From the NCBI GenBank assembly GCA_015179025.1, contig WHUX01000139.1, positions 62,001 through 126,000 on the forward strand: 64,000 bases of DNA, in the 5' to 3' direction. The notes beneath the pieces were generated by a model. The model did not search any database. It was not told where the DNA came from and was given only the letters and a program-made list of their open reading frames with translations. The stretch comes from Terfezia claveryi. Lineage: Eukaryota; Ascomycota; Pezizomycetes; Pezizales; Pezizaceae. The position numbers and the translations under genes were made by a program. Below are positions 36,596 to 64,000 of the stretch, in pieces; positions within the stretch are counted from its first letter, which is position 1; every line of letters begins with the position of its first letter.

Positions 36596-36661
36596 CCTCT
36601 GTTCTAGAGAGTTAATAAATATGTTCAATTCCCTAATGTATTGCTTGACCAGTCCACCAAC

Positions 36662-40458: not shown

Positions 40459-40614
40459 GTAAGTATCAATTCTATGAACATTATAGAGTACATTCCATGA
40501 CAACAGATACATCCGTGACAACAGATACATCCATAACAACAGATGCATCCGTGACAACAGATGCATCTGTGACATTATGAAATAAATAAGAATCTGACTT
40601 TATTAGGTACTTAG
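40459..40614 (+). repeat. Transposase intron 3 of hAT-A, filled with TCCGTGACA units
   Basis: A 156-nt intron from GTAAGTATC to ACTTAG. It holds five units of ACAGATGCATCCGTGACA type (18 bp) at about 40490-40580. The matching hAT-B intron (46411-46570) has five units with AAAATCT spacers. Confidence 0.8.
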
Positions 40615-41491
40615 AGTACAGTTTGAGGAATATTTTGATATCAACTACGCCAGGTACATACCGGAGCCCCAGGCTCAGAAGAGTCACCTCGATGATGAAG
40701 AGCAATCCTACATTATGCGTTGACTACAAGAGCGGACAGTGACCAAATCAGAGAATATTCCGGAGGTCAAGAGATACTTAACCAGTGGTCTGGCCATACT
40801 AGATGGGCAGTGTCCCCTATCTTGGTAGAAGGTTCATGCCATTGAATACCCAACGCTAGCACGAATGGCAAGCGACATATTGAGTATTCCACTGACATCT
40901 ATGGCTATTAAGCGTATATTCAGTGGTACTCGAGATATTTTGCCTTACCAGTGGAACCAAATAGGTCACCAGATGATTACAGTGCTAATGTTGACGAAAT
41001 CTTAGGACTTGATACATGCAAAATATACAGAACCAGACCCTGAGAACACTCCTGCACATGTGGAAGAAGGATTAGCTGATCATGATGAAATTGATGTGAG
41101 CCAGAAGAGACAGGCTCTCAGATATGATGCAGAATTCCTCTGCCGCATGATGCCAGTCACTCTAGATAGACCATCAGGAAATGGTGATACAGTGTCAGAG
41201 TATGAAAGTAGCGTGGAGGGAGAGTAAGAGTTTGAGGGAGATGATCTTGATGTAGGAGATACAACTTCTCAGATTTCTAGCCCATTCAACAATTTCAGTG
41301 CGCAGTCAGCGGGAGGAATTGGCTTATTCTAAGGCAGCCTATTGAGGGAGGAAAGAGGGACCCCAACACCCTGCACCCCACATCGCGGGACTAAGCGCCC
41401 TGCCTCTCCATCCGTCAACCTGACGCCTTCAATGGCAACAAGGCTCCAGAAAAGGTTATAGCCCACTCAGTATAGGAATTACAAAGTGTGA

Positions 41492-42175
41492 GCCTGCATA
41501 CTTGAGGGGGCGCAAACCGAGGTAGGTATGGTCAATTATCCTTTGTTCATTGTTTTTTTTCTTTGTCCTTTGTACCTGAGTTTTGCTTTTTCCTATTAGC
41601 TTCCCTTGTATAGGTGGGTTTCCTTTTGTGCATGGGTTTCCTTAATATGTTGTTTTTTTAGTTGAATTGTGATTATTATGATGAGCGATACTAGGGTAGA
41701 TTAGTTCTCATGATGAATCCACGGTTGATACTCTTTTTTATTTTTTTTATTTTGGTCATTGATTACTTACGGGATATAAATTGAGTTTGGGGAGAATGGG
41801 AATAATTCACAATGTGGAACTGTAGGCACTTCTTGGGTGGACTGAAGAATCTTCAGAGCATTTATGTATGAATTATTATTAAGATAGGGCAGATGGAGGG
41901 TTTAGAGATTAGAAGCAAACATGAGAAATTTGGGTGCAAGGAAAAGGATAACATGAGGATGAGTAGGTAGGATGTTTGATATAGAATGTATGGACATATG
42001 GCAGCACAAACAGAGCATAGAGAATGTGAAAGAGAAATTTGAAAGAATGGTTCTAGAAATGGTGACAGCAGAAGCAATCCATACTAGTAACTAAGAATGG
42101 TGACATTGGCAAAAACCATACAAAGGGACAGGAACGGGGTTTGGTGGGATCGGTGCTATGCTGGAAGATGAAACG
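41492..42175. other. 3' flank of the hAT-A transposase
   Basis: T-rich sequence without a convincing gene. It probably contains the transposase 3' UTR and polyadenylation region. No clear single signal can be named. Confidence 0.4.
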
Positions 42176-42245
42176 AGCAATCCGTGACAAGACGGGCAAT
42201 CTGTGACAAGAGTAGCAATCCATAACAAGACGGGCAATCTGTGAC
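42176..42245. repeat. TCCGTGACA array, hAT-A right end
   Basis: Four units CAATCCGTGACAAGACGGG (about 19 bp), two with CTGTGACA or CATAACA variants. Confidence 0.8.
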
Positions 42246-42329
42246 AAGCTGTATACACGGACGATAGGGGAAAGAACGGAAAACCCTAGACTTGGCAAAT
42301 GCACAAGTGTGAACGAAGTTAGTAAGGGA

Positions 42330-42472
42330 TCTTGATGAGTAATCTGTAGATCACCGATTAATCGGGAAAGTGGTCTGAGGCGAGTTGCAGTAGGCAGAGA
42401 CCGAGGCGAGTCGATAGGTGAACAAGTCGTAAGGGCCAGAAACTCGGACCGACTCGCCCCGTGCGCACACTA
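42330..42472 (-). repeat. hAT-A right terminal and subterminal repeat region
   Basis: Inverted counterpart of the left end: ACCGATTAATCGG, GAGGCGAGTCG, GGACCGACTCGCCCC and the terminus GTGCGCACACTA. The right 8-bp duplication CTCCTTGG follows at 42473-42480. Confidence 0.8.
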
Positions 42473-44593: not shown

Positions 44594-44745
44594 TAGTGTG
44601 CGCCCCGAGGCGAGTCGAGGCGAGTTTTACAACTATTTTTCCGACTCGGTACTGACTCGCACTGGCCACATTTCTAGCGAAGCCACCTCGCACCGACTCG
44701 CTGAGTACTCGGTGATTAACCGAGTCCTCGCCAAGAATTACTGAC
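44594..44745 (+). repeat. hAT-B left terminal and subterminal repeat region
   Basis: After TAGTGTGCGCC come GAGGCGAGTCGAGGCGAG, CCGACTCGGTACTGACTCGC, CACCGACTCGCTGAGTACTCGG and GATTAACCGAGTC. CGACTCG and its complement recur at least six times, the likely transposase-binding units. Confidence 0.8.
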
Positions 44746-44826
44746 CGATATTTCACTGTGTACTTCGTTTCTGTCGTCACTAAATTATTCTCTTGGCAGA
44801 GAAATTTGCCCGAGTTAGCTTTAAAC

Positions 44827-45142
44827 AATTCCGTGACAAGTTGAATTCCGTGACAACTTGAGAGAATTCCGTGACAAGGAGCAATCCGTGACACCTAAGG
44901 AATCCGTGACAACTTGAGTTGATTCCATGACAACTTGAGTTGATTCCGTGACAACTTTAGACAATTCCGTGACAACTACGGGACCGTGAGAAATAGCGAC
45001 AATTCCATGACAGTGCAATCAATCCATAACAGTGGAGGCAATCCGTGACGTGCAAGAAATCCGTGACGTGCAAGAAATCCGTGACAGTGACGGTGTGCTA
45101 AGTTAAATTTGACCCGAATTATATACAATATGTATGAGAACT
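44827..45142 (+). repeat. 316-bp direct repeat, left copy, with TCCGTGACA array
   Basis: About 98% identical (six differences by eye) to 61937-62252 and in the same orientation. It contains about twelve TCCGTGACA units with variable spacers and ends GTATGAGAACT. The two copies lie near the two ends of hAT-B. Confidence 0.9.
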
Positions 45143-46410
45143 TGTCCGCCGGCAGCATATAGCCGAGTTGGAGCATTGTAAAATAACCCCGCAAAAATTC
45201 GATCCTGATATATTCCACATAAAATAAAGCAAACCTTACTCAAAAGACAATCCCAAGACACAAAAAAAACATTTTTTATCATAGCAAAATATGCCTGAAC
45301 GCCAATTCGCTAACAAAACACCAAATCAAACCTAACACCACCTAAAAAAAAAAACCCTAAATCCAAAAATATTCCCATCACACAAGAGAAACATTCCCTA
45401 TCAAACACCAATACTTAAACTGCAACGTCCCTAGACACTCCTGATTACTGAGCCGGCAGTAATAATTACCATCCCGCACGCCCTACATATCATCAAACCC
45501 CACATAAAATACACTACTTACTCAGACTTTGTAGTTCCTACGCTGAGCAGGTCGTAGTTTCTTCTGAAACCTGGTTGCCATTGATGGCGTCAGGCTCACG
45601 GATGGTGATGCGCGGCGCTTCACGCTCCGACGTGGAGTTGAGGGGGATGGTGTTGCTTCTTGCTCGCAAAATACAGTTCGACGGAATGAGTTCAACAAGC
45701 CTGGCGTAGAATGTTCCATCAGACTATGCGATAGGCTTGTATTATCTAATGCTGAGTCTGCCAGGTCATTTTCCAGGTAATCCTCCATTAGACCGCTCGT
45801 ACCAGCATCCATGTCACAATCCGTATCTGAATCCAAGTCCGTCGTTCCCTCTGCGGGATCTAGGAATTGTGGTACCATGCGGCGGAGGAAGTCTGCGTCA
45901 TAAGTGAGAGCCTCGTTCTCCAGTATTACCTCACCTTCATCCAGATCGGCTATCCCTTCTTCCACATGTGCTGGTGTAATTTGTCCCTCTGGGGCTCCGT
46001 ATTTCGCGTGTACGGTTGCCCACGATTTGGTTAGCATCAGCGCAGTTATCATCTCGTGACCCATTCTGTTCCGTCTGTAAGGCAAAATATCTCTAGCACT
46101 ACTGAATATTCGCTCCACTGGCACAGATATCAGTGGAATACTCAATATGTCCCTTGCCATTCGTGCCAGCACCGGAAATTCACTAGCATGGACTTTCCAC
46201 CAGGAGAGGGGACATTTCCCATTCAGTGTTGTTACTGGAATCGAAAGGTATCTTTTGATCTCGGGTACATCCTCCGATTGCACTGTTGTACGCTCTTGCA
46301 GTCGACGCATGATATAGGATTGTTCTCCATCATCGACTTGTGTGTTATGAACCGAAGGTTCTGGCGCGTACTTGGCGTAATTATGATCAAAATAATCTTC
46401 GAACTGAACT

Positions 46411-46570
46411 CTGAGCACGGAATTTTGTAAGAATTGTCTTTCTGTATGTCATGGAGGGTCTCGTGTTACAGAAAATCTTGTGTCATGGAAAATCTCATGT
46501 CACGGAAAATCTGGTGTCACGGAAAACACATTGGGCAACATAGGGAGGGGCGGAGTAAATTCAAACGTAC
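46411..46570 (-). repeat. Transposase intron 3 of hAT-B with TGTCACGGA units
   Basis: A 160-nt intron (GTACGT..CTCAG on the minus strand). The array at about 46447-46530 has five units of GTGTCACGGAAAATCT type (about 17-18 bp). Confidence 0.8.
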
Positions 46571-47196
46571 TTGTAATACTCCGCGTATGCAATAGAGTCA
46601 CTGTTCTCCTGCGTCCCACTTAGATTTTGGACGGTGAGATTTCCCCAGTCCATATACAAGGATAATTTCTTGGATGGATCAAGGATGGTGGCAAGGTTGT
46701 AGATGAGAGATTGTTTTTCAGTCCTAGAATAATACTTCTAGAACATCTGCTGACACGCTTTCGTCGCGGAGAGAAACCCTGGAGCCCAGGTAGGATTACC
46801 GGGAAGTTTGCGTATACGTTTCCGCTGTTTTTCTATGTGGTCGAAGATGTCATTGTAGATGAAGAACGCATTGTGTATGGTCACATGCTGTCCTGTGGAG
46901 ATAGCGTGAGTGTAATCTGACAAAGGTTTGAGGAAAATAGTAGCCTCCTGAACTTGGGTCCACTCCTCCTGACTCAACCACAACTCGGAGTACTTGTTCT
47001 CTGTTGTAGCTAGAGCAATCCATTGCTCAATGTAGCACTGGAGCCTCAATGCTCGTGTAAGCATTTCAAACGTTGAGTTCCAGCGCGTTTTGACGTCCTG
47101 GATGAGGCCTATGGGTGCTCGGGTGTCAGTTTGGAGTTCCTTGAATTGTGCCAGGCGTTGTGGGCTGGCAACTATAGCCTTACAGAGCTCTCGAAC

Positions 47197-47322
47197 CTGC
47201 ATAAATTTTAGCAATAGGTTCCGTGACTCGTATTGGTCTTCCGTGACATGTCTGCCATTCCGTGACATGTTTGCCTTTCATGATCCACCTTTGTTTATTG
47301 AGCAGCACGGAAAATGACTTAC
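47197..47322 (-). repeat. Transposase intron 2 of hAT-B with TGTCACGGA units
   Basis: A 126-nt intron (GTAAGTC..ATGCAG, branch-like TGCTAAAA). It holds three units (ATGTCACGGAATGGCAG, ATGTCACGGAAGACC and GAGTCACGGAACC). Confidence 0.8.
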
Positions 47323-48654
47323 TTTGCAAACAGATCGCGCGAAAGTACCTACCGCATAGTTCTGCAGCGCTCTTATTGACGACTCGATTGGAGGTGTGGA
47401 CCAGCTAGGATCTTCATTATCTGAGTTGGACTTGAGTGCTTTCATAAACTCGTTGCTGACCAAAGCAATCACATGTGCTAGGCAGGGAAGTCGGTATTGC
47501 AGTGGGTCCCATTTAGCACCGAAAACATTGGCTTGTAAATGCTTAGCCAACGCCGTGTTAACACTTGTGTTATCTGAAACAACAGCCAAAACTCGGTTCG
47601 TGATGCCATATTCCCGTATTAATTTACTTAGATTGTTACCCAAGTGAATAGCGCTATGAGCTTCCCCACCTAGGTACTGGAATCCGATTGTATGTTGGCG
47701 CAGCTGCCAGTCCTGGTCAATATAATGAATTGTTGTCCCCATGAATGCTAACTTATTTGGAGAAGTCCAACAGTCTGTAGCCAGGTGTAGGAATGTATCT
47801 CTTGGGAGACTTTTTTCAACTTTCACTTGAACTTCAGCTGCATAATTATGTACACCCCTGCAAAGTGTAGTGGGAGAGGGGATATCAATTCCAGATCTAA
47901 GCAATTTCAGGAGATTCTGGAACTGCGGATGTTGGATAGTTCGGAAAGATAAGTTGGTGGCTATTACAGTTTTCATGAGTTCATGTTTGAAGGCATCATT
48001 ACTAAATTGCACTTGCGGGGATTGTGCGGCGGGAGGTGTTGCCTAGGTGTAACGTAAGCTTGTCTCCTCAATTATTGCAGGGTAGGTATGGATTATATAA
48101 TTACCTTCCCAAACAGGGTTGAAATGTCTTGATCCTTTCGCCCACTAGCTGACCGACATCTCCCTGAGGTGAGGTGACCTCTTATGTGTGTGGTGCCCAC
48201 ATTGAACGCACTAGGGTGTTGCAAGGTACCTTTGCAAGATAAACAAAATATGAAAGGCTCCCCGCTCTGGATCTTTGCGCCTTGTCCAAAATGGGCCCAG
48301 TGTGCGGCCGTTCGAAGTTTAGAAGCCCATCGGGGTAGATTCATATTGTTACTTCGCATCTCTTTGGCCAGATTTTCATGGAGCTTGCCTGCCCAGTCGG
48401 TAGTTTCCCACTATTCATCAAAAGGCGCAGATTGCTCTGCTTCCCACTGGAAAGCAGTTCCGCCTAATATTCTAGTGAGAGTGGAAACCATTGAGCTAGA
48501 ATGAGGTACCTATGTGTACACTTGCAGATCGAGATACGTTCGAGTATGGGGCAAGATCGTCTGGCTATTGTATTCCTGGAAGTTGGCAATAGGTTGGGAA
48601 AGGCATTAGGGAAGAGATAATTATTTATTCACATTCTGCGACCAGTTGGCGCAT

Positions 48655-48695
48655 GTCACGGATAACGCGTGCTTGTCACGGATTCTGTGGAAGAC
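48655..48695. repeat. Two TGTCACGGAT units upstream of the hAT-B transposase
   Basis: GTCACGGATAACGCGTGCT is followed by TGTCACGGATTCTG. They lie in the short gap between gene X and the transposase start, where promoter sequence would be expected. Confidence 0.65.
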
Positions 48696-48758
48696 ATTCC
48701 ATTGGTACCTGAGATGCGTTCCATGATAACGCAAATTTATATACTTCAATAAGCACGG

Positions 48759-49856
48759 TCAATCATGCTGTAGCGCATCTACAGCGCGCCAAACCCAATC
48801 CCAATCCAACCGGGCGACCGTCCAATCATTCCAAAAAGGGTCCCCGATGTTTTCGTGGTCATCATGTGAGTCGTCATCATTGTCATCACCTGAATCCTCT
48901 GAGCTGTGGGATGACCTCAAGAGCTCAGTTGTACAGTCAGAGCTTTCGCTGCAGGAAGATGATGAATCGCTATAACCAGAATCGCAGTCGACATTGTCCT
49001 CCATCATGTCGTCTTCAGAGTCATTCCCGATTTCGGACTCAGTCGGGCTAGCGTTATCAATTGGTCCGGGGCTGTCGCCGACATCACTTTCTGGTAGCTC
49101 TGATATATCATCGGGGATATTGGTCAAATCCAGTTGGAGTATGCTGCATCTCAATGGCCAATCGGGACTGGCTGTAAGTTCCATAATCTCTCAAGGTCTA
49201 GACATAGTTAGCCCGACGCTCTGTCTAACCAGACTACGCTCTGTCTATATGCAAGGATTAGAAATACACCTTCTTGAAGGCCGAAGCCAGAACTCTTGCC
49301 CACAACATAATACTGTTATTCTAGGTGGGGGATGCCATTGCGGTGATATATACACTGGACGCCGAATGATTGCCCCATCAGGGATCCGGTGGGTCTGGGA
49401 GAGTATCTAGCATGTGGTGAGTCGAGACCTCAATGTTTTAGCGCAGAGTTAACTTACTGATGGGAATCGACAATCTTGGCATAAACCCTATGATTGTTGG
49501 CTGCCACTCAGGTAATGGTGGAAAAGGGTAACCCATAACAAATCATAGAGAGTATAGTCATCCAGGTAAAAGATTTGTGCACTACTATGCAAGCTCATTG
49601 GGAATACTATATCACACCCATCAAACCAAATCCTCTCTAGAAGCTCCATGGCTACCGCTCTGGAGGTAATCCTGTTGGGGTCGAATCGGTCCATAACCAA
49701 CTGGGTGGACTGGGACGTTACCAATTCCGTAACCTGTAGACTAAGGATGCGTCGTAGTCCTGCGGTATCTCTCCATGGCTGCCGGAACTCTTCGAAAGCG
49801 AATTCATCTTCTGGATTGTAGTATTCGGGCATATTGTGAGGTAGGGTTCTTGGCAT
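48759..49856 (-). CDS. Gene X of hAT-B, unknown protein, probably spliced
   Basis: The 5' part, 49856-49488, is open; the start conserved with hAT-A is the ATG at 49832 (MPEYYNPEDEFAFEEFRQPW). FYLDDYTLYDLLWVTLF lies near its end. A middle exon near 49390-49270 encodes RRPVYISPQWHPPPRI. The C-terminal part, 49184-48759, is Ser/Asp/Glu-rich and ends WTVARLDWDWVWRAV. The splice sites are not certain (a GTAAGTT donor near 49455 fits) and a small duplication near 49200-49240 may break the frame. No known domain is recognised. The gene is conserved with hAT-A and lies just upstream of the transposase. Confidence 0.55.
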
Positions 49857-49864
49857 AATGCTCG

Positions 49865-50105
49865 TTGTAATATGGTCGGTGAGAATTACAGCCCTGACGA
49901 ACTATATATAAGCAAAACTCCAGTTGATAGTTCTAGAAAGAATCCCTAAATAGCAATATCCTCTTTTGGTAGATTGTCTACCTCTAATTCTGACGTAGAA
50001 TGGGAGGACAAAAGTAGACTAGTCCGCAGCTAATAATAATTGTATCCAAAGGACCTGGCTAGCATTAGTCGTAGGAAAGACCTGCATGGCCCATCTGGGA
50101 CAAGG
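49865..50105. other. Gap upstream of gene X
   Basis: Presumed gene X promoter region. No specific site can be named. Confidence 0.3.
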
Positions 50106-50107
50106 CA

Positions 50108-50245
50108 TAAGATCCGTGACAACACATCCGTGACAAGACATCTGTGACAAGACATCCGTGACAAGACATCCGTGACAAGACATCCGTGACAAAATAACCC
50201 GTCCGTGACAAAGAAAATATCCATGACAAGAAAAAATATCTATGA
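50108..50245. repeat. TCCGTGACA array, hAT-B middle
   Basis: About nine units; the most regular part is five or so copies of the 15-mer CATCCGTGACAAGA at 50125-50195. The ORFs over it only translate the repeat. Confidence 0.9.
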
Positions 50246-50980
50246 CCACATAAGTAAAGCACAAGATACCACCAAATGGAAGTACCATCCTGATCCACTC
50301 CAACCTGGTGTAGAACTGCCACAATGGTTCACAATAGTACCTCATCTACGAAAGCGATGAGTCGATGGCGATGAGTCGATGGCATAATCTATACCATAAG
50401 AGTTGGTTTAGCTGGTGGGAGGTAGGCTGGCAGGTAAAGCATTCTCTGTCTCATGTAGTAACGGTCAATGCATCTTCTGAATAGCATGGTTAATCCTGAT
50501 ATAGCTAGTTGTTCACAACGCATCGACTGATCAATTGCTGTACAGGCAATAATGTCGTTCATCACTTGCCGAGGTATAGTTCCAGGCAATGCAGGCAAGT
50601 TATTGTGCCAGTTCCGAAACAGGTAGTACATGCCTAGGTCTGAAGGAAATGACCAGAGACATTGCTTGAGCCAGCGTCTGCTGGTGCCAGATAAATTCGT
50701 CGTGTCCCCACTCTACCACTCTATTCACTTCCTGTCCTCCATTATCTGCATCTTCCTACCCTTTTGTCATTCCGCACCAAGCCACCTCCGATCCATTATT
50801 ACTTCACCACAACAAAATATGTCGTCAAGGTATGACTTCCATACTTTTTTGCTTGCCCTATATGAGGTTGCGTACATATCCCGTGTTATTTGAGTAAGTG
50901 CGATAGTCATGTGGGCTTGTCCCATTTTGCGCGGTTCCACTGAACAGATGACGATGATCGTATTTTCCTATTACCTTGAG
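50246..50980. other. Intergenic gap in hAT-B, no recognised gene
   Basis: A minus-strand frame at 50631-50389 (80 aa) reads well (MYYLFRNWHNNLPALPGTIP) but I did not find it in hAT-A and do not recognise it. The final part is homologous to hAT-A around 33700-33770 (GTATTTTC and GGGCTTGTCC/GGGCTTGCCC blocks on opposite strands). Confidence 0.35.
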
Positions 50981-51004
50981 CGGGTCATGTTTGAAGCGCC
51001 TGGC

Positions 51005-51240
51005 ACATCAGGATAGATATTTCTGTGCCGCAACGCCCCCTGCAGGCGCCCTGATGGACCACCTTGTACCTCTCCTGCCCTCTGCGTTAGGTCGCCCCGA
51101 CGCCACTTCTGGCGCATCAGGATATATATTTCTGTGCCGTAACGCCTGCTCCCGGCACCCTGACGGACTATCTTCTACCTGACCCGCCTTGTGCGTCAGG
51201 TCGCCCCGACGCCACAACACCATCACCAGGCGCCCTGACC
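51005..51240 (+). repeat. Two tandem GC-rich units of about 115 bp
   Basis: The units begin CATCAGGATA.ATATTTCTGTGCCG (51007 and 51116) and end TCAGGTCGCCCCGACGCCAC. They contain GGCGCC-type words as in the hairpin element at 30213. They lie outside the left palindrome arm. Confidence 0.75.
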
Positions 51241-51289
51241 ATTGCCCTATTCTAGCTGCGCACCCTAGGAACCCTAGCCCTTGTGTCGC

Positions 51290-53425
51290 TCGGGCGCCAT
51301 GTCTTCTGAGGTACCGCCCTGGCGCCTTGTGTTCCGAGGTGCCACCGTGGTGCGTGTGTACATCCATGCCCTGGCACAACTACCTGATAGGTGGACCACT
51401 GTGTGCACTCGGAGCATGGAGGTAATAGCAGCTATACATTGCAAGAACTATGTACGTTTGAATTTCTATATACATAGCTAAGCTATAGATGCACTTTGAA
51501 CGAACCATTCTCTCATGCATCCCACTTGAACTCATCCTGCGCATATGCCTCCAAAAATCCTAGCGGTTCCCTGATCTGAGCCGTCTGCAAAGTCGTTATC
51601 GCCGTGCTTTGATCTAATAATATCCATATAGCTATTAACAACAGAACGCTGATATCGCGAGACTGCACATACCTAGAGCTACCCAATTGCTGGCTGATGT
51701 AGTCATCCACTGCCATGAGCAATGCCAATTACTAGAGCAATTAGCTATGCGTTCCCATAAAGTCCGTGGGTTGGCTGGCGAGTTCACGTACCTAGGTATG
51801 TCTACGCATATAGATGGGGAATATCTCGGGAGTGCACTTGCGGAGTCCTAAGAGCAATTAGCTATGCCTTCACATACAGTCCGCTGGTTTTCTGGCGAGT
51901 TCACGTACCTGGCTATGCCTGTGTCTGCGCATATAGATTGGGGATATATCGGAACTGCACTGGCGGAGTCCTAAGAGCAATTAGCTATGCCTTCACATAC
52001 AGTCCGCTGGTTTTCTGGCGAGTTCACGTACCTGGCTATGCCTGTGTCTGCGCATATAGATTGGGGATATATCAGAACTGCACTGGCGGAGTCCTAAGAG
52101 CAATTAGCTATACATTCACATAGAGTCCACTGGTTTTCTGGCCAGTTCACGTACCTAACTATGCCTGTGTCTGCGCATATAGATTGGGGATATATCGGAA
52201 CTGCACTGGCGGAGTCCTAAGAGCAATTAGCTAGAGTCCGCTGGTTTTCTGGCGAGTTCACGTACCTGGCTATGCCTGTGTCTGCGCATATAGATTGGGG
52301 ATATATTGGAACTGCACTGGCGGAGTCCTAAGAGCAATTAGCTATACATTCACATAGAGTCCGCTGGTTTTCTGGCCAGTTCACGTACCTGGCTATGCCT
52401 GTGTCTGCGCATATAGATTGGGGATATATCGGAACTGCACTGGCGGAGTCCTAAGAGCAATTAGCTATACATTCACATAGAGTCCGCTGGTTTTCTGGCC
52501 AGTTCACGTACCTGGCTATGCCTGTGTCTGCGCATATAGATTGGGGATATATCGGAACTGCACTGGCGGAGTCCTAAGAGCAATTAGCTATACATTCACA
52601 TAGAGTCCGCTAGTTTTCTGGCCAGTTCACGTACCTGGCTATGCCTGTGTCTGCGCATATAGATTAGGGATATATCGGAACTGCACTGGCGGAGTCCTAA
52701 GAGCAATTAGCTAGAGTCCGCTGGTTTTCTGGCGAGTTCACGTACCTAGCTATGCCTGTGTCTGCGCATATAGATTGGGGATATATCGGAACTGCACTGG
52801 CGGAGTCCTAAGAGCAATTAGCTAGAGTCCGCTGGTTTTCTGGCGAGTACACGTACCTAGCTATGCCTGTGTCTGCGCATATAGATTGGGGATATATCGG
52901 AACTGCACTGGCGGAGTCCTAAGAGCAATTAGCTAGAGTCCGCTGGTTTTCTGGCGAGTACACGTACCTAGCTATGCCTGTGTCTGCGCATATAGATTGG
53001 GGATATATCGGAACTGCACTGGCGGAGTCCTAAGAGCAATTAGCTATACATTCACATAGAGTCCGCTGGTTTTCTGGCGAGTTCATGTACCTAGCTAGCT
53101 ATGTCTCCGCATATAGATGGGGGATATCTCGAGAGTGCACTGGAGGAGTCCTAACCTCAGCTTGACCTGCCGCCGACTGGCTGGTTGAGTTACCTGTGCA
53201 AAGAGGGGGCGCACGTGCTCTCGTGTTATGTTCGTTCACGCATGCCTGGAAATATGTCTCGGTTGACGCGGCCGACAAATATGTGTGATTGGCGGGAAGG
53301 CAGATTGGCGCACGCTAGTGTGACAGATCAGTACATGCATGTTTCAGGCCACATATGCCCGCCAGCCGTGAGATTACCGAAGTGGGTAATAGGTATGGAA
53401 GAGGAGCCCTCATGGCAGGCTTGTA
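51290..53425 (+). repeat. Left arm of the giant palindrome
   Basis: Inverted copy of 54620-56405. The outer part includes CCCTGGCACAACTACCTGAT (51371), present inverted at 56317-56336. The next part (51510-51730) codes for an open frame on the minus strand that is repeated inverted at 55977-56186; it begins MAVDDYISQQLGSSRYVQSR. The rest is tandem 104-122-bp units. Confidence 0.9.
51735..53100 (+). repeat. Tandem array, about 12 units of 104-122 bp (left arm)
   Basis: Each unit contains GAGCAATTAGCTA, GTCCGCTGGTTTTCTGGC, CACGTACCTGGCTATGCCTG and GGGGATATATCGGAACTGCA. Some lack the 18 bp ATACATTCACAT segment, giving shorter units. The units are highly similar, which indicates recent homogenisation. 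Confidence 0.92.
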
Positions 53426-53429
53426 AATA

Positions 53430-54615
53430 TGGACTTGTTTATGCGAGAAACTCATGCTTTGAGACTTATATATATATATATGCGAGAAACTCATGCTTTT
53501 CGAAGCTTATATATATATACTCATGCTTTTCGAGGTTTCTAGATATATATATATACTCATGCTTTTCGAGGTTTCTAGATATATATGCGAGAAACTCATG
53601 CTTTTCGAGGCTTATTAGTATATATGCGAGAAACTCGTGCTTTGGAGATATATATATATATATGTGAGAAACTCGTGCTCTTGAGGCTTATTAGTATATA
53701 TGCGGGAAACTTGTGCTTTGGAGATATATATATATATATGCGAGAAACTCTTGCTTTGAGACTTATATATATACTCATGCTTTTCGAGGCTTCCAGATGA
53801 AACTAACGATGGGTTTCTCGCATATATATATATATAAGTCTCAAAGCATGAGTTTCTCGCATATATATCTAGAAGCCTCGAAAAGCATGAGTATATATAT
53901 ATCTCCAAAGCACGAGTTTCCCGCATATATATATATATATCTCTAAAGCACGAGTTTCCCGCATATATACTAATAAGCCTCGAAAAGCATGAGTTTCTCG
54001 CATATATATATATATATCTCCAAAGCACGAGTTTCCCGCATATATACTAATAAGCCTCGAAAAGCATGAGTTTCTCGCATATATATCTAGAAACCTCGAA
54101 AAGCATGAGTATATATATATCTCCAAAGCACGAGTTTCCCGCATATATATCTGGAAGCCTCAAAAAGCATGAGTACATATATAAGTCTCAAAGCACGAGT
54201 TTCTCGCATATATATATATATATATCTCCAGAGCACGAGTTTCCCGCATATATATATATATAAGCCTCGAAAAGCATGAGTTTCTCGCATATCTATATAT
54301 AAGCCTCGAAAAGCATGAGTTTCACGCATATATATATATATAAGCCTCAAAGCACGAGTTTCTCGCATATATATATATATATATCTCCAAAGCACGAGTT
54401 TCCCGCATATATATATATAAGCCTCGAAAAGCATGAGTTTCTCGCATATCTATATATAAGCCTCGAAAAGCATGAGTTTCTCGCATATATATATATAAGC
54501 CTCGAAAAGCATGAGTTTCTCGCATATATATATATAAGCCTCGAAAAGCATGAGTTTCTCGCATATATATATATATAAGTCTCAAAGCATGAGTTTCTTG
54601 CATAAACAAGTCCAT
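53430..54615. repeat. Core of the palindrome: short units in both orientations
   Basis: Units of about 35-45 bp read GCGAGAAACTCATGCTTT, then TCGAGGCTTATATATATA, left of about 53810. Their complements, with GAGTTTCTCGCATATATATA, fill the right part. (TA)n tracts of varying length separate the units. ORFs translating to MRETHAFRGLYIYM-like repeats are by-products. Confidence 0.92.
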
Positions 54616-54619
54616 ATTT

Positions 54620-56405
54620 ACAAGCCTGCCATGAGGGCTCCTCTTCCATACCTATTACCCACTTCGGTAATCTCACGGCTGGCGGGCATATGTGGCCTGA
54701 AACATGCATGTGCTGATCTGTCACACCAGCGTGCGCCAATCTGCCTTCCCGCCAATCACACATATTTATCGGCCGCGTCAACCGAGACATATTTCCAGGC
54801 ATGCGTGAACGAACATAACACGAGAGCACGTGCGCCCCCTCTTTGCACAGGTAACTCAACCAGCCAGTCGGCGGCAGGTCAAGCTGAGGTTAGGACTCCC
54901 CCAGTGCACTCTCGAGATATCCCCCATCTATATGCGGAGACATAGCTAGCTAGGTACGTGAACTCGCCAGAAAACCAGCGGACTCTATGTGAATGTATAG
55001 CTAATTGCTCTTAGGACTCCGCCAGTGCAGTTCCGATATATCCCCAATCTATATGCGCAGACACAGGCATAGCTAGGTACGTGAACTCGCCAGAAAACCA
55101 GCGGACTCTAGCTAATTGCTCTTAGGACTCCACCAGTGCAGTTCCGATATATCCCTAATCTATATGCGCAGACACAGGCATAGCCAGGTACGTGAACTGG
55201 CCAGAAAACCAGCGGACTCTATGTGAATGTATAGCTAATTGCTCTTAGGACTCCGCCAGTGCAGTTCCGATATATCCCCAATCTATATGCGCAGACACAG
55301 GCATAGCCAGGTACGTGAACTGGCCAGAAAACCAGCGGACTCTATGTGAATGTATAGCTAATTGCTCTTAGGACTCCGCCAGTGCAGTTCCAATATATCC
55401 CCAATCTATATGCGCAGACACAGGCATAGCCAGGTACGTGAACTCGCCAGAAAACCAGTGGACTCTAGCTAATTGCTCTTAGGACTCCGCCAGTGCAGTT
55501 CCGATATATCCCCAATCTATATGCGCAGACACAGGCATAGTTAGGTATGTGAACTGGCCAGAAAACCAGCGGACTCTATGTGAATGTATAGCTAATTGCT
55601 CTTAGGACTCCGCCAGTGCAGTTCCGATATATCCCCAATCTATATGCGCAGACACAGGCATAGCCAGGTACGTGAACTCGCCAGAAAACCAGCGGACTGT
55701 ATGTGAAGGCATAGCTAATTGCTCTTAGGACTCCGCCAGTGCAGTTCCGATATATCCCCAATCTATATGCGCAGACACAGGCATAGCCAGGTATGTGAAC
55801 TCACCAGAAAACCAGCGGACTGTATGTGAAGGCATAGCTAATTGCTCTTAGGACTCCGCAAGTGCACTCCTGAGATATTCCCCATCTATATGCGTAGACA
55901 TACCTAGGTACGTGAACTTGCCAGCAAATCCACGGACTTTATGGGAACGCATAGCTAATTGCTCTAGTAATAGGCATTGCTCATGGCAGTGGATGACTAC
56001 ATCAGCCAACAATTGGGTAGCTCTAGGTATGTGCAGTCTCGCGATATCAGCGTTCTGTTGTTAATAGCTATATGGATATTATTAGATCAAAGCACGGCGA
56101 TAACGACTTTGCAGACGGCTCAGATCAGGGAACCGCTAGGATTTTTGGAGGCATATGCGCAGGATGAGTTCAAGTGGGATGCATGAGGGAATGGTTCGTT
56201 GGAAGTGCATCTATAGCTCAGCTATGTATATAGAAATTCAAACGTACATAGTTCTTGCAATGTATAGCTGCTATCACCTCCATGCTCTGAGTGCACACAG
56301 TAGTTTGCCTATCAGGTAGTTGTGCCAGGGCGTCGATGTTAAAGACACGCATCACGGCGGCACCTCAGAAAACACGGCGCCAGGGCAGTACCTCCCAAGA
56401 CATAG
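54620..56405 (-). repeat. Right arm of the giant palindrome
   Basis: Inverted copy of the left arm. It contains about nine tandem 104-122-bp units at 54955-55975 and the 69-71-codon frame at 55977-56186. Arm lengths differ (about 1.79 against 2.14 kb), mainly through tandem unit number. Confidence 0.9.
55977..56186 (+). CDS. Short ORF repeated in both palindrome arms (69-71 aa), unknown
   Basis: Reads MLMAVDDYISQQLGSSRYVQ, then SRDISVLLLIAIWILLDQS and ends QDEFKWDA. The same frame on the minus strand at 51728-51513 gives an almost identical product. Sequence identity between arms explains this without selection, so a real gene is doubtful. It is, however, the only non-repetitive open frame in the insertion. 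The middle part is hydrophobic. Confidence 0.25.
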   Translation: MLMAVDDYISQQLGSSRYVQSRDISVLLLIAIWILLDQSTAITTLQTAQIREPLGFLEAYAQDEFKWDA

Positions 56406-56789
56406 CGTCAGAGCTCGTTCCTGATGATTGTGCAGTAACGTCAGGGTCAGGAGGAGGACCATGTGGTGCCAGCGTCAGCAGGCAGCCTGTGAAGAGCCGG
56501 CGTCGGGGAGACAGAGAAACAGCGGAGCGCGCCGGTAACTGGCAGTTTGTCATTAGTGGCACCGAAGGCGTCAGATGCCATAAAGGCAAACTATATTCCT
56601 TTGTGATGCAACCACACGTACTGCAAGGTCGAGTGGTTTGTGGTGCTGGAAACTGATCTGCGGTGAGGAACAGGAAAATGGCGTATAGCGGTATTGTGTG
56701 GTAACTCACTTGATTTGACACAACCTTATTTTCGGCTTGCAGCTAATCTTTAACCCCAAACTTCCAGTGATTATCAAACCCGATACCGT

Positions 56790-57323
56790 GTGCGAAATCA
56801 ATCACGATGTCCAATACTAGAAGTACCTGCCACACCTAGCGAAGCCGACACTGACAGTGATCATGTCAGAGATGGTAGAAGGGTTTTGCAGGAAATAGAG
56901 GTGGAGATGCAGGAGGACAATCCTGGGGTTGATAAAGAGAATGAGGAGCCACTCGACGAAACTCCAAGGCAACCCCCATACACCCAATATGAACATTCCC
57001 AACCTGTACAACTTTCCCCGTCATTTGCCACCCCCCCTGTTATTGATGTCTCACGTGCTCCTCGTCAGCAGCAGAATTCCATAAATCAGCCCCTAAATCT
57101 TTCTTTGCCTGCAGTTGGGACTATTAACCCAAGAAGGACAAGGTGGTCCAAAGACCGGTCAACCCGGCGACGCCAGGTTCGCAAACAAAAGCGATGGCAA
57201 AGGCAGCAGGAAGCACAAGTCATCGAGGAGGCCGCTGTGGGGGAAAGTCTTAGTATTGAGATTGGGCCGGGCTCTTCTGATTTTCATTTTGGCCCGATAT
57301 CCTTCCATGTCAACCAAAATTAA
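56790..57323 (+). CDS. Gene Y of hAT-B, unknown protein (about 177 aa)
   Basis: The N-terminus carries VPATPSEADTDSD and an acidic stretch (QEIEVEMQEDNPGVDKENEE), the middle is Pro/Gln-rich (PPYTQYEHSQPVQLSPSF), and the C-terminal part has a strongly basic RRTRWSKDRSTRRRQVRKQK block that may bind nucleic acid or act as a nuclear signal. The frame opens with GTG at 56790, so the true start is probably in an upstream exon or at an ATG nearby. A broken homologue lies at 33064-33545 in hAT-A, which supports a real gene. No known family is recognised. Confidence 0.6.
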   Translation: MRNQSRCPILEVPATPSEADTDSDHVRDGRRVLQEIEVEMQEDNPGVDKENEEPLDETPRQPPYTQYEHSQPVQLSPSFATPPVIDVSRAPRQQQNSINQPLNLSLPAVGTINPRRTRWSKDRSTRRRQVRKQKRWQRQQEAQVIEEAAVGESLSIEIGPGSSDFHFGPISFHVNQN

Positions 57324-57602
57324 ACATGGACCCATTTATTCATATGTAGACTTGAGTGCAGGTGAAATTCACAATGTAAGCACTTATGTGCACGCCTCGT
57401 GGTGACGCTAGTCGCATGGCCGTGTTCGGTTAATGGCATCCAGGTTTGCTTGTAAACAAAGAATTCATTTATTTGCACGAAAAAAGGGTTTTGGTGGTTA
57501 TCTTCCATTTATCTACCAGGTCCAAGGAATCGTCAGCACTTGTACGGTGATTTGCATCTATATAATCTGCTGTGAAGATAACGAAGGGGTATGTGCAAAG
57601 CC

Positions 57603-57800
57603 ATGTCACGGATGCTGTCACGGAGGATGTCACAGAGGCTGTGACGGAGGTCGTGTCAGGAAATCTGAAGTTAGCTTATTCACTAACTATCAGTTATCTC
57701 AATCACAGATATTCCCGTCTGAATAACTAGCAGCTGTGAAGATAACGAAGGGGTATGTATTGCAAAGTCGTGTCACGGAGGCTGTCACAGAGGTCGTGTG
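57603..57800. repeat. TGTCACGGA units between genes Y and Z (hAT-B)
   Basis: Four units at 57603-57660 (GGATGCTGTCACGGAGGATG) and two at 57769-57795, separated by a duplicated GCTGTGAAGATAACGAAGGGG segment (57570 and 57732). Confidence 0.75.
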
Positions 57801-57861
57801 AAGTGGAACGACGTTGAGTCCAAAGTGGAAAGACTGACGAAGTTTGTGTTTAAGATCCGCA

Positions 57862-59539
57862 ATGCCAGACCGTCCTCAGAAGAAAAGTAAGACAACTGGT
57901 AAAGCGCCAGCCAGCCCGGCACCAGAGTCTGCCATGCAGAAAAAAAAGTCAACTCGAGAAGGACCAGCTAGCTCGGCGGGGAAGAGGCCGGAGCTTATTC
58001 AGAAAGAAGGCATGACAACTCGCAAAGCGCCGGCAGCACAGACAACAGAGCATGTTCCGAAAAAAAGGAAGACAAGAGCAGAATTATCACCCTCAATTGA
58101 GGATGTTACAAGAAGAAGGAGGACAAGAGCCGAACTAGCCCTGGTCCCCCCCCCAGTTGAAGATGTTCCAACAAGAAGAAGGACAAGAGCCGAACTAGCC
58201 TTCTACCCACCCCCAATTGCGGATGTTCCAAGAACAAGGACAGCCGAACTAACTGAGGATGTTCCTAAAAAAAGAAACACAAGTGCGAGATTAGCCATCC
58301 CATCCCCAAGGAATCTTTACGCCAAATATGCCAACTTTCCATGGGGCTCACAGGAGTTCAATCCAGATACCGAATTTAGCGGGGGGAGGAATGCATGGGG
58401 CACTTCCACCAATCCCCACATGAAAAAAATTCGAGAGACCCACAAGAAACTGCTTGGCCCCCCTTTGTCGTGGGAGCGTGCCAAAGACTGGAAAAGACAA
58501 AAAGTCAACAGGGTACTCAAAGCAGGGATTAAGGAGGCGGAACACGCTACGATAACTAGAAGGGCAATCGGCACTCGGAGAAACCAGTTAAACGATATTG
58601 AACTAGGAAACTTCGAAAGAGTTGTCCAAAGAACGTGGGACCTGATGTTCATCCGCAAAAGGCCATATATTCTTTACCAGTGGTATCAACTCTCGGATGA
58701 CCAGAAGAGATTATACTTGGAATTGGAGGAGCAATAAGAGCTCCCCGATTTCCAAATTCTAAATGGGGAATTGGAAGCAATAGGGGTCAAGCCAGTATAG
58801 CAGTTCGCAGTCGTCATTAATGTTGTGCCGATAAACCGCCGAGCCTATACCCGATTCCAAGAGCCAACTCCACTAGTCTCGACACCCGACCCTGGAGCTA
58901 CACGTGACACAGGTGCCAACATAACTAGTGACACAGGTGCCAACAAAACTAGTAACAAAGGCCCTAACGTACCCGAGGGTCAGATGCTGACCATTCAAGA
59001 GGAATTAGCCGAGGGGGATGCCGACGATTGTTTAAGTGATGAGGACATTGGGACGGATATTGAAGAGGTAGGTGCATCCTCACGCTTGATCCATCTCGCG
59101 CTTGATGTAAAGAACTTTACTCACTAGTGGATAGGATTGCGATGACAAACCCAACAAGCAAGATGATGACGAAGATACAGGACTATGGGGCAGATGGGAA
59201 GCTTCTAAGGGTTCTACCGAAGAAGAAGAAGCTTAACTAACTGAATCTGACTCCAGCAAACGGGGAAAGGGGTTGTTGGTACCTGGCGGAGATAGGCCCA
59301 CCGAATTTCTTCCAAGCGGCATGGAAGATGAGGATTATAGTGACTCCACCGAGGAGGATGATACCGAGGTCAATAAACGAGTATATCGGCGGATATTGCG
59401 TCGAGGTACTGCAATGACAACCACCGACAACAATCAAGAGGACAAAGGCGAGAAGCAAGTCGCAGGCGATAATGGGGGGAAAGATGAGCGAGAAGATGCA
59501 GATGAGGAAGAGGGTGAGGATGAGGACAAAGCTGACTAG
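57862..59539 (+). pseudogene. Gene Z of hAT-B: basic N-terminus, conserved core, acidic tail
   Basis: The ATG at 57862 opens a 291-codon frame. Residues 1-145 are Lys/Arg/Thr/Pro-rich, with three or four repeats of RRRTRAELA separated by PPP..EDV. The core, shared with hAT-A, starts LYAKYANFPWGSQEFNPDTE and includes AWGTSTNPHMKKIRETHKKL and YILYQWYQLSDDQKRLYLEL. A TAA at 58735-58737 and a TAG at 58798-58800 interrupt it, but similarity to hAT-A goes on (GELEAIGVKPV, RRAYTRFQEP, EGDADDCLSDED). An intron at 59068-59134 joins, in phase, a tail ending in an acidic DEREDADEEEGEDEDKAD block, with one more stop at 59234-59236. It may bind chromatin or histones; this is inference. Confidence 0.65.
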
Positions 59540-59580
59540 GGAGCAAGGAGCAAAATGGGAAATATTTTGGATTTGTTTTT

Positions 59581-59635
59581 ACTGTCACGGATGAAGGACT
59601 TGTCACGGATGGCAAACTTGTCACGGATGCCGTGA
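59581..59635. repeat. Three TGTCACGGAT units between gene Z and the H3-like gene (hAT-B)
   Basis: ACTGTCACGGATGAAGG, then CTTGTCACGGATGGCAAA and CTTGTCACGGATGCCG. They directly follow gene Z. Confidence 0.85.
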
Positions 59636-59639
59636 ATAG

Positions 59640-60254
59640 TCGTTATCAACTTTCTGAGGTGTAATTGTACTACTATTTTTGTGTCTTTGATTGTATATTT
59701 TATTGTGTCTTTTGTTGTGTATGTGTTGGATGTCTACGGGCTGATGCAAGTTTTTTTTTTGGGTGTTTACGGGGTGGGGTGATGCAATAGTTTTTATCTT
59801 TGTATATTTTTTTGATGTCTACTCCGGACTGATGGTATTTTCTTTGTATGTTTTTTTGATGTCTACAGGCTTTGTTTTGGGCTCATGCTAGAGGTATTTT
59901 GTTTCTGTTTTTGTTTTGTCCAATGCTAGTGTTTGTTCTGTCTGAAACATTAGAAGGTACATTTTTTTATTCCTCCCTTTGTTACTAGTGAGCTAACTAA
60001 TGACGGCCAATACAAATTAGTGAGGATAGAGAGAAACAATGAATTATATTTTGTTCTAGAGCTCATTGGTCTATTTGTGGTCCACTGCGTACCCTCGGGA
60101 ACATACATATACAAGCAAACTTACTATCCCAAATCTCAGATTCTTCGAAACTCCGACTTCTGTAACCTTCAGGTTTGGAAATAACACTTACTCCTAGATA
60201 CAGATAACACTTACCCCCAGATACAGATAACACTTACCCTCAGATACAGATATA
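59640..60254. other. Gap upstream of the H3-like gene in hAT-B
   Basis: T-rich sequence, then three tandem CAGATAACACTTACCC.. units (about 60180-60250) directly before the ATG, within the likely 5' leader or promoter. Confidence 0.5.
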
Positions 60255-61418
60255 ATGGCGCGAACAAAACAGAAACCCAGAAATATCAAGACCATAGTGC
60301 CCCCAGCGACGGTCCCACCCCCCCAGGTGCCCCCGCCCCAAGTGGCCGCACCCCAAGTGGCCGCACCCGAAGTGGCCCCGGCGATAGTCCCCCCTCCCCA
60401 AGTGGCCCCCGCCATAGGCTCACAGGCTAGAGCAGTTCCCAGAAGAAGAAGGGTCAATCGAGGACGTAAGAACTCCTAAGCTCAATGCCAGTTCAATTTG
60501 ACCTTGGAATGCTAAGTGTGCTGTCAGTGGCCATTGTCAGACAGATACGGAGACAACAGGGCAGCGCAAAGCTGATAATACCGAAGACTGCGTTCCGACG
60601 GTTGTGCAGAGAAATTGTACAAGACGTGAACAATGAATACAACACTATGCCGAGGATTCTCGGGGAACGGACCGATGTTGAAAGAATTGGAATTCTCGCG
60701 ACAAATGCTCTCCAAGAGTCTATGGAGGCATATATACATGAATTTTTTACAGGTAATAAGGCATAGATGGTGAGTAGAAAATTGTCAGAATAATACTAAC
60801 ATGGCTGATGCAATAGCGATCAACCTTTTGGCAACCCAAAGTGGGGAGTGAAACCCACCACGCCAAACAATTCTTCGCAGGGATGTGAGGTTGTGGCGTC
60901 AAGTGGAAGAGAATCGGCTATCCGGGGGTAATGTGACCCACATACACGCACCATTTTTCCATCCACCACCAGCAACACCAGAACCAGCAGACGCACAAGA
61001 ACAAGCACTAGCACCAGCACCAGAACCAGCACCGGCACTAGCACAAGCACAAGCACCAGAACCAGCACCAGAACCAGCACCAGCACCAGAACCAGCACCA
61101 GCACCAGCACAAGCACGAGCACGAGCACGAGCACGAGCACCTGCACGAGCTCGAGCACGAGCTCGAGCACCAGCGCCAGCACCAGAACCAGGACCAGCAG
61201 CTCCTATTGGGGCGGATACTTCTTCGTCATCGTCTAGAAGAAGTATTAGAACAAGAACCTTGTCATCGTCTTCTTCCTCATCTTCTGACAAGGAAGGAGA
61301 ACAATCGGAGGAACGGGGACGACAAGGAGAAGAACAACAGGTAATTGAAGGATCACCTCGAACACAAGATTCCATATTACAGCCCCAGGAAGATCATCGA
61401 AGATGTTTTATTAATTGA
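60255..61418 (+). pseudogene. Histone H3-like gene of hAT-B with extended tails
   Basis: Exons 60255-60465, 60528-60752 and 60817-61418; introns of 62 and 64 nt, the second with a perfect TACTAAC branch site. Exon 1: MARTKQ, identical to the first six residues of canonical H3, then PRNIKTIVPP and a Pro/Val/Ala tail ending RRRRVNRGR. Exon 2: IVRQIRRQQG (H3 LREIRRYQKS), FRRLCREIVQDV (H3 FQRLVREIAQDF) and ATNALQESMEAYIHEFFT (H3 ALQEASEAYLVGLFED). Exon 3: INLLATQSGE, then TILRRDVRLWRQV (H3 TIMPKDIQLARRI). A tail of about 160 residues follows: Pro/Ala/Glu/Arg repeats, a Ser run and an acidic end. One TGA at 60849-60851 splits exon 3. It likely replaces or joins H3 in nucleosomes. Confidence 0.85.
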
Positions 61419-61936
61419 GCTTAGCATGTTTTTTGTGCCCCGGGTTGATTGGGGGTAATGAATGATCTGATAAGGGCAGGAACAAGGTTACAGAAACTAA
61501 TTCGTTTGTATGTAGGCTTGAGAATAGCTTATGTTATTCGGATCGATATGGGACTGAACATGCGGACACGCAAGGAAGAGGAAGGAGGTAGAAAGGGAAG
61601 AGTGAAAAGGGTAGGGTTATCGGTGGTATTATTTTTTGGCTTGTATTATATTTTAGGGAAAAGAGTGTAGGCTTGTTGGTAGCGTTTTTTTTTTAGTTGT
61701 GTTTTCTGTTATTTTTTAATTGTGTTATCAATTGGGGAAGAAGGAAGTTGGAATGAAGGAAGTTGGAATCGGATTCATTTGTATTTTTAATGTAGTTGTT
61801 TTATGAGTTGTAATTGGGTCATGGGATTTTCAGAAGCAAAGGGAGTTCGCGAATGAGGTTATGATTAGGAATGGCGGACGGCATGAAGGAACTATTACAA
61901 TTTTCGAGTTAGTAGGGTTGTGTTACAAAATGGGAG
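61419..61936. other. 3' flank of the H3-like gene, no recognised gene
   Basis: T- and G-rich sequence. A 73-codon frame (61449-61670) with YVGLRIAYVIRIDMGLNMRT is not recognised and has no visible partner in hAT-A. Confidence 0.35.
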
Positions 61937-62252
61937 AATTCCGTGACAAGTTGAATTCTGTGACAACTTGAGAGAATTCCGTGACAAGGAGCAATCCGTG
62001 ACACCTAAGGAATCCGTGACAACTTGAGTTGATTTCGTGACAACTTGAGTTGATTCCGTGACAACTTTAGACAATTCCGTGACAACTACGGGACCGTGAG
62101 AAATGGCGACAATTCCATGACAGTGCAAGCAATCCATAACAGTGGAGGCAATCCGTGACGTGCAAGAAATCCGTGACGTGCAAGAAATCCGTGACAGTGA
62201 CGGTGTGCTAAGTTAAATTTGACCCGAATTATATACAGTATGTATGAGAACT
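61937..62252 (+). repeat. 316-bp direct repeat, right copy, with TCCGTGACA array
   Basis: Near-identical to 44827-45142 and in the same orientation. It lies about 200 bp inside the right end of hAT-B; the left copy lies about 230 bp inside the left end. Confidence 0.9.
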
Positions 62253-62296
62253 CGTCTAGAGTCAGGTACCAGCACAAGTACTAGATCAATAATACT

Positions 62297-62454
62297 AAGG
62301 CTTGGCGAGTACTCGTCGGCTACTCGGCGCTGGCTCGAGTAATCCAGAGCAGCGAATAACCGACTCGCCGGTTAGAAGAGTAGAGAAAAACCGACTCGCC
62401 GGTGCGAGTCTTGGCGAGGCGGTTCGAGAAAAAATCGCCTCGCGGCGCACACTA
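62297..62454 (-). repeat. hAT-B right terminal and subterminal repeat region
   Basis: Contains GGCGAGTACTCG, two copies of AACCGACTCGCCGGT, GTGCGAGTCTTGGCGAGGCG, then ATCGCCTCGCGGCGCACACTA at the end. The right duplication AAACTGAT is at 62455-62462. Confidence 0.85.
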
Positions 62455-64000
62455 AAACTGATGGCAGGCTAAATTATCAGAGTTTTTATATCGATTCAAC
62501 TTCAAGATCAAGTATTGGCCTAGAAAAGCTAGGGGTAAGCTAGATACACTGACTAGAAGATCAGGAGATCTTCCTAAAGGGGAGGATAAAAGGCTAAAGC
62601 ACCAAAATGAGGTGGTACTAAAACCTGAAAATCTCGACCTAGCAGCCAATAGCTATACTGATACTGATGTTAATACTGATGCTAAAGCTAAAATGAACCC
62701 TGAAGCAGATCTCCTTCTGTGGATATGATGGGCATATGTAGAGGACGACCTGGTTAAGGATATAATTGCTGCAGTGGAGTCTAGATAGCGCTGTCATACC
62801 AAGATTTCTCTAGCCAAGTACACCACTTAGGATGGCCTTTTATACTACCTAGATTAACTTTATATACCTGAAGGAGAGCTGCAGATGCAGCTGATTAAGG
62901 AACACCATTATACCCTAGCTGTGGGTCATTCTGAGGTAGCTAAAATGTTAGAGCTGCTAGCTAGGCAATATATATAGATTGACCAACAGAAGGAAGTGGA
63001 GTAGTACATATGGAACTGCCATGTTTGTAAGCATGCTAAGCTTACCTGTCATGCTCCTTATGGGACCCTGAAGCCCCTAGAGATCTCAGACTAACCTTGG
63101 CAACACCTAACCATAGACTTTGTAACTGGGTTGCCGGAGGATTCAGGGTTTAATACTATTCTTATGGTAGTAGACCGATTGACCAAAATGAGGTATGTTA
63201 TACCTTGCCATAATACCTGTTTGGCCTGGGACCTCACCGGCCTCTACCTCAACCATGTATTCCACTACCATGGTCTCCCCAAGTTAGTCGTCTCGGACCG
63301 CGGCCCTCAATTCATCTTGGACTTCTAAAAAGTATTTTGCAAGCTTCTAGGAATCAACATACACCTCTCCACAGTATATCACCCCCAAACAGATGGTCAG
63401 TCCAAGCAAATGAATGCAATTATAGATCAGTACCTGAGAGCATATGTCAATTATCAGTAAAACAACTAGGTTTCGCTGCTGGCAATCTATGAGTTCGCTA
63501 CTAACAACCATTTCTCAGAGACTCTAAAAACCTTCCCGTTCCTAGTCAATTATGGCTAGCACCCTCATTTTGTGGACTCCCTAGCACCCCTACACAAGGC
63601 TAGGGAGAACACTCCAGCTAAGGAGTTTACTACACAGATTGCTGAGTTGTACTCTATCCTAAGAGCCGAACTGGTATATGTTTAAGCAAGGCAAGTGGAG
63701 TATACTAATGGATTACAGTTGCCAGCCCCCAGGTATCAGCCAGGAGATAAGGTGTGGCTCTCAAGCATGCACTTCCAAATAGAACAGCCATCTCACAAGT
63801 TCGACTATAAGTTCCTAGGTCTATTTGAGGTGGTGGCTGCTATAGGCACTCATGCCTATCGATTGAGGTTCCCTAAGGACATCAAATGCCACCCTATTGT
63901 CTAAATCTTAGAGATCGAGCCAGCCGTAGATGATCTCTTCCCTAAGTAAAAGCACTCCTTACCCCTCCCATGGTGATCACAGATGAAGAGGAGTGGGAAG
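62455..64000 (+). pseudogene. Gypsy-B RNase H end, integrase and start of chromodomain
   Basis: Coding resumes after h[14 protein letters not shown] sequence and [11 protein letters not shown] close the RNase H. The integrase zinc domain shows EHHYTLAVGHSEVAKMLELL (His pair) and CHVCKHAKLT (Cys pair, about 63015-63045). The core has TIDFVTGLPEDSGFNTILMV, VVDRLTKMRYVIPC, VSDRGPQFIL (second Asp) and [18 protein letters not shown], where Lys stands at the usual Glu of DDE, or the adjacent residue serves. PGDKVWLSS and a GPY/F-like region follow. The last bases encode TDEEEWE, the usual start of a chromodomain, cut off by the window end. Stops mostly replace Trp. Confidence 0.88.

Follow-up and report, generated by a model that had tools for sequence, protein, structure and literature searches.

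The window that we analysed, a 64-kb stretch of Terfezia claveryi DNA, contains two hAT elements, and the H3-like gene under study sits between the terminal repeats of one of them, the type-A element (positions 44594 to 62454, forward strand). The terminal repeats read TAGTGTGCGCC.. at both ends, the right one inwards from 62454, and its partner begins at 44594. Assignment to hAT rests on these inverted repeats, on an 8-bp target duplication, for which the flanks of the type-A element (GAACTGAT and AAACTGAT) have 7 of 8 bases in common, and on a transposase with a dimerisation domain. The transposase lies on the reverse strand, its C-terminal part with the dimerisation domain at 45525 to 46448 (PF05699, 2e-20) and its upstream part at 47281 to 48042, where a weak DUF659 match (PF04937, 2.2e-4) scores 21.4 bits, below the curated cut-off of 34.7. 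At the right end, copies on five other contigs lose similarity to the window exactly at 62454; this boundary is not seen in L040, where the contig end comes first, in L043 and L045, which stop earlier, and in L047, which stops at 62445, while in the copy on contig C23 (L041, L072) similarity continues past it, as if the flank had been duplicated too. A later insertion of about 5.6 kb (51006 to 56607), missing from the C23 copy, consists mostly of long inverted repeats, for example 1,231-nt arms at 98%. A small forward-strand ORF (56754 to 57320) has counterparts in L069 to L072, with 31–94% identity over the matched part, and belongs to no Pfam family. Adjoining the element, at 62500 to 64000, we saw by eye retroelement pol remnants with stops, including WQHLTIDFVTGLPEDSG.., which we take to be an integrase-like motif. 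Rfam and tRNA scans of the 64-kb window returned no match.

The gene itself comprises three exons on the forward strand. Exon 1 (60255 to 60465) supplies the MARTKQ start and a Pro-rich N-tail; intron 1 (60466 to 60527, GTAAG..CAG, phase 1) was placed by comparing several donor and acceptor pairs, only one of which kept H3 in register; exon 2 (60528 to 60752) encodes alpha-N, alpha-1, a loop 1 with a 14-residue insertion, and alpha-2; and after intron 2 (60753 to 60816, GTAA..TACTAAC..TAG, phase 1), exon 3 (60817 to 61418) encodes alpha-3 and then a long low-complexity C-tail. Across 60255 to 61418 the helices of H3 type occur in the correct order, and exon 3 is interrupted by an in-frame TGA at 60849 to 60851, which precedes the last helix (TILRRDVRLW); looking by eye for an intron-2 acceptor past this stop, we found none in frame. 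The same codon is open in the sister copies L040 and L041, which are damaged elsewhere (by a stop in exon 1 and by frameshifts, respectively), so the splice model holds and it is the window copy that is broken; we regard this copy as a dead member of its family. Of the three-exon MARTKQ gene first described here, the start, the order of the helices and the consistent intron phases stand, whereas its being open does not.

The original prediction also pointed to a homologue in the other hAT element, and this gene is real, though decayed: it lies on the reverse strand with its start codon at 29972 and exon 2 at 29527 to 29754, and carries three stops. Its element, of type C (27919 to 42472, reverse strand), aligns end to end with one on contig C773 (C773:772295-784890, 12,596 bp) that has the same ends, the window element differing by extra stretches at about 36665 to 38445 and at 30209 to 30404. 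The C773 element encodes a transposase matching part of the dimerisation domain (PF05699, 7.2e-11), and its flanks match exactly over 8 bp (8/8), a match that is weaker than it looks because the element lies in a tandem repeat containing those 8 bases. The repeat TCCGTGACA was found 50 times in the window against 0.21 expected, all copies falling by their coordinates (28281 to 62196) inside the two hAT elements; intron 2 of a type-C gene (L069:4800-4876) contains copies of the repeat TGTCACGGA, which is scattered over its element.

With the fold as query, the 72.6-Mb assembly gave 106 matches, which, once merged and with host H3 and CenH3 set aside, represent 99 H3-like loci, fragments included. 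Those that we read fall into at least four subfamilies: A (the window gene), B (L071), C (L069, L070) and D (L027). Exon 2 measures 225 nt in A, B and C, while introns 1 and 2 measure 62 and 64 nt in A, 53 and 58 nt in B, and 69 and 77 nt in C. The tails vary more freely, the N-tail being Pro-rich in A and Lys-rich in B, and the C-tail being rich in Pro and Ala in A, rich in Gly and Ala in C (L070) and all but missing in D; the Pro-rich N-tail and C-terminal extension of about 160 residues ascribed to the gene at the outset are therefore features of subfamily A and not of the family as a whole. The protein starts MARTKQ in the window gene, in other A copies and in many C copies, mostly MAGTKQ in B, and MATTKT in D. 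Among the 56 genes examined in A, B and C, six are intact from the initial Met through the whole fold and have the splice signals of both introns (0/13 in A, 2/20 in B and 4/23 in C, two of these four starting MVRTKQ), and the other 50 are broken. Type D was left out of this count; exon 1 of L027 is frameshifted by our reading of its sequence. The L027 protein (C512:175670-178894) repeats a K(P)(R/K)NIKTMGG motif in its N-tail and ends soon past the fold. A deep, decayed lineage is seen on C27 (L097 and L095, C27:15100-17700), where an ORF resembling the companion ORF described below (33% identity) and an H3-like stretch follow one another in the same order; no open splice model was found for this H3-like stretch, and a similar pair (29%) occurs in L096 (C143:32300-33300).

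Several lines of evidence identify the encoded protein as an H3. The spliced product of type-C copy L069 aligns over residues 1–150 with H3 chains in the PDB (E 2e-11), which argues that the gene is an H3 rather than a chance string of motifs. A profile search for the histone fold, proposed with the original prediction, succeeded as well: exon 2 of the window gene by itself passes the Pfam Histone threshold (PF00125, 30.6 bits against a cut-off of 26.4, 4.5e-07), and spliced copies match at 1.9e-11 (type C) and 1e-11 (type B). The central claim, a divergent H3 fold carried within a hAT element, is thus upheld by the PDB and Pfam matches together with the transposase and terminal repeats. For comparison we used host H3 (L002, C153:8707-8961) and host CenH3 (L001, C773:158053-158367), the latter recognised by its match to S. 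pombe cnp1 (3.4e-45); in a tree with both, the H3-like copies form one group of their own (support 100/100).

The 14-residue insertion in loop 1 is common to all four types, and at 29 positions of the fold host H3 and the four types have the same residue, among them R69, R72, Q76, D77, R116, T118, D123 and L126. All four types differ from host H3 at K56, R63, V117, C110, H113 and A114, and have 4–5 extra residues behind A114; C110, H113 and A114 are H3-H3 contact residues. Canonical H3 is ruled out by the extra loop-1 residues and the altered C110, H113 and A114, and we conclude that the protein is best described as a divergent H3-like one. When these kept and changed residues are read on the nucleosome structure, pairing with H4 and contacts with DNA seem plausible, and the H3-H3 contact would be altered. 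As to the N-tail, the K9 region had been thought lost, and the normal ARKST context is indeed gone; all four types nevertheless carry a (P/A)RN(I/V)K(T/S) motif in this tail, which occupies residues 8–13 in A, B and D and lies deeper in the tail of C. The N-terminus reads MA-x-TK or a near form of it in all four subfamilies, which weakly suggests mimicry of K4 of host H3.

The fold bears the marks of constraint. Over exons 2 and 3, pairwise omega was 0.131 between A and B, 0.132 between A and D, and 0.169 between B and D, at dS 0.80–1.15; in comparisons with C silent sites were saturated, and 56–59% of residues agreed. A codon model gave omega values of 0.175 for five A, B and D copies, 0.167 for ten copies from all four types and 0.143 for one copy of each type, type C being aligned with a gap codon in exon 3, and fixing omega at 1 cost 37.4, 62.6 and 59.2 log units, respectively, even when scored at the best of six kappa values. 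These tests cover few subfamilies, represented in A and D by copies with exon-1 damage. We conclude that the fold appears to have been under strong purifying selection between subfamilies while the tails diverged. That this signal was inherited from host H3 is unlikely, because the copies form a separate group, share the loop-1 insertion and carry introns at two positions where the reading frame of host H3 runs on uninterrupted. A captured host H3 transcript (transduplication), which would bring neither introns nor constraint, does not fit the two introns and the omega values of 0.13–0.18 between subfamilies.

On these sequence grounds the gene is H3-related, has two introns of its own, diversified into subfamilies within the lineage of the transposon and had its fold kept by purifying selection; we take it to be a real transposon-borne H3 variant, maintained by selection in the past. 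As for what it did, we favour with moderate confidence the reading that it is a long-resident, selected H3 variant of the hAT lineage that probably alters chromatin to the element's favour. In this lineage the divergent H3 gene resides between the terminal repeats of the element, with a companion gene a short way upstream. The H3-like protein would pair with host H4 and act on chromatin, so that the DNA of the element, or a share of host nucleosomes, would receive an H3 without the normal K9 context, K56 and the H3-H3 contact residues. The most likely job of such a protein may be to weaken heterochromatin silencing of the H3K9 type over the element, which would help transcription and transposition.

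The main rival to this anti-silencing reading is a direct role in transposition, in which the H3-like protein helps the transposase to fold the element or to select or open target nucleosomes, with at most a small part in silencing; we consider it possible but less probable. It would fit the conservation of the DNA-facing arginines alongside the changed H3-H3 contact region, and it would fit the finding that the gene is kept with the transposase and a companion ORF in the same elements. The companion, a central ORF at 57862 to 58734 of the window (forward strand, conserved core 58312 to 58734), ends early at 58735 when compared with its counterparts in L071 and L069. Over 141 codons it is 86% identical between A and B, with an omega of 0.086, and 69% identical between A and C. 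It lies upstream on the same strand, at 1.6–2.2 kb (within 2.5 kb), at 54 of the 99 H3-like loci; a further 12 have it within 12 kb, and 33 have none in that range, part of these lying near a contig end on that side (e.g., C16, C52, C98 and C712), and a downstream control found it at 0 of 99. It matched no Pfam family, and AlphaFold predictions on three rows of it reached a mean pLDDT of 37.5. Against a direct role, hAT elements in general are not known to need a histone.

Alternatively, the gene could be passive cargo, a host H3 captured by chance that has no function and is drifting or being killed by RIP. Most copies are broken, and among 19 type-C loci compared with L070, 607 of 729 changes are C-to-T or G-to-A, 283 of them in CpG and 213 in CpA context, a decay that we regard as RIP-like with a strong CpG share. 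Recent divergence likewise shows high omega values (0.909 between the window copy and L040, and about 0.50 among five type-C copies), although such relaxed constraint is expected once copies begin to decay. Chance capture accounts poorly, however, for the low omega between subfamilies, for the common insertion and non-host introns, and for a companion gene in fixed order at the 54 loci, and we consider it improbable. A centromeric type of H3, used to target or mark centromeres, is very improbable. In its favour, loop 1 of host CenH3 is also longer than that of H3, and the AU test does not reject a tree that joins the H3-like copies to CenH3 and sets H3 apart (p 0.154); in the phylogeny suggested earlier, the separate group may be rooted with either H3 or CenH3. 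Against it, CenH3 groups without the H3-like copies in the best tree (96/91), the long open frame of host CenH3 showed no MARTKQ-type start, and position F84, which is W in the CenH3 rows, is occupied by I in all four types.

For the preferred reading, a selected H3 variant that acts on chromatin to the element's favour, we count the H3 identity, the location between hAT terminal repeats, the low omega, the separate group, the insertion, the introns, the companion, the kept residues and the six intact genes of 56. Against it we count the 50 broken genes, the lack of an intact gene among 13 of type A, the relaxed recent omega and the small number of subfamilies tested; the RIP-like decay, moreover, gives no sign that the element is shielded from host defence. 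Host H3, chiefly through methylation of K9, is a common route to the silencing of transposons, and an element that retains an H3 of its own under selection would, if our reading is true, represent a direct counter to such silencing. The family would also serve as a natural test of how far H3 can vary; here the tails, K56, R63, V117 and the H3-H3 contact have changed, while R69, R72, R116, T118, D123 and L126 have stayed the same.

The original prediction held that no histone was known in a hAT transposon, but published cases exist in other fungi. Manning et al. (2013, PMC3538342) describe, in their account of the element, a hAT of Pyrenophora tritici-repentis that has a transposase and a central ORF together with an H3-like gene, the latter present in 26 copies and represented by ESTs. 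Compared by text, the architecture of transposase, central ORF and H3-like gene is the same here, and the H3-like proteins are alike in that theirs, too, has N-tail insertions, matches neither H3 nor CenH3 and is multi-copy. Their element measures 5.6 kb, and its 26 nearly identical genes are read in that account as a recent amplification with drift, whereas ours measures 12.6 kb (on C773) and has diverged subfamilies and a signal of purifying selection. Dhillon et al. (2019, PMC6710886) report hundreds of RIP-damaged H3-like copies in hAT elements of Mycosphaerellaceae. Pseudocercospora fijiensis and its relatives resemble T. claveryi, as far as the passages on the element go, in the H3-like sequence within a large hAT (9.5 kb), the 8-bp duplications and the RIP-like decay; a 16-residue insertion is described there in one of two copies, against 14 residues in loop 1 here. 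All 784 copies are reported to be inactivated and to stem from a captured transcript that lacks introns, whereas here some genes are intact, introns stand at non-host positions and omega is low between subfamilies. In the passages concerned, capture of a transcript was deduced from the absence of host introns; a gene with introns elsewhere, as here, would likewise show none at the host positions.

In their passages on the gene, both papers (PMC3538342, PMC6710886) take it to be a captured host H3 that drifted or was killed by RIP. More speculatively, and we put this forward as somewhat unlikely, an old lineage of fungal DNA transposons could have evolved its own H3 and a companion, perhaps a partner or chaperone, to form nucleosomes favouring the element and to escape heterochromatin, and the Dothideomycetes "captures" would then be branches of that lineage rather than separate accidents. 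If true, the two published cases of "transduplication" would be possible members of one long-lived element family.

Among more distant parallels, the R25 repeat that Hane and Oliver (2010, PMC3017866) describe in Stagonospora nodorum resembles our elements in its weak homology to a DNA transposon, in its homology to H3 and in its degradation by RIP, but the portion of that paper dealing with it gives a degraded consensus only and re-classifies it as presumably a region of endogenous genes. Viral histones, as reviewed in PMC9145170, are likewise histone genes carried by selfish elements, but the carriers are viruses; those passages of the review that name transposons or transposable elements include no transposon-borne histone. 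When the spliced product of type C was searched against a protein database, it gave 11 candidates, none at E 0.001, and among the titles and abstract beginnings of the literature that we searched, which included few subscription papers and preprints, there was no selection test on a transposon-borne H3 and no claim of its long residence. A gene of this kind is already known from hAT elements of other fungi; the evidence that it may have been a working part of the element appears to be new.
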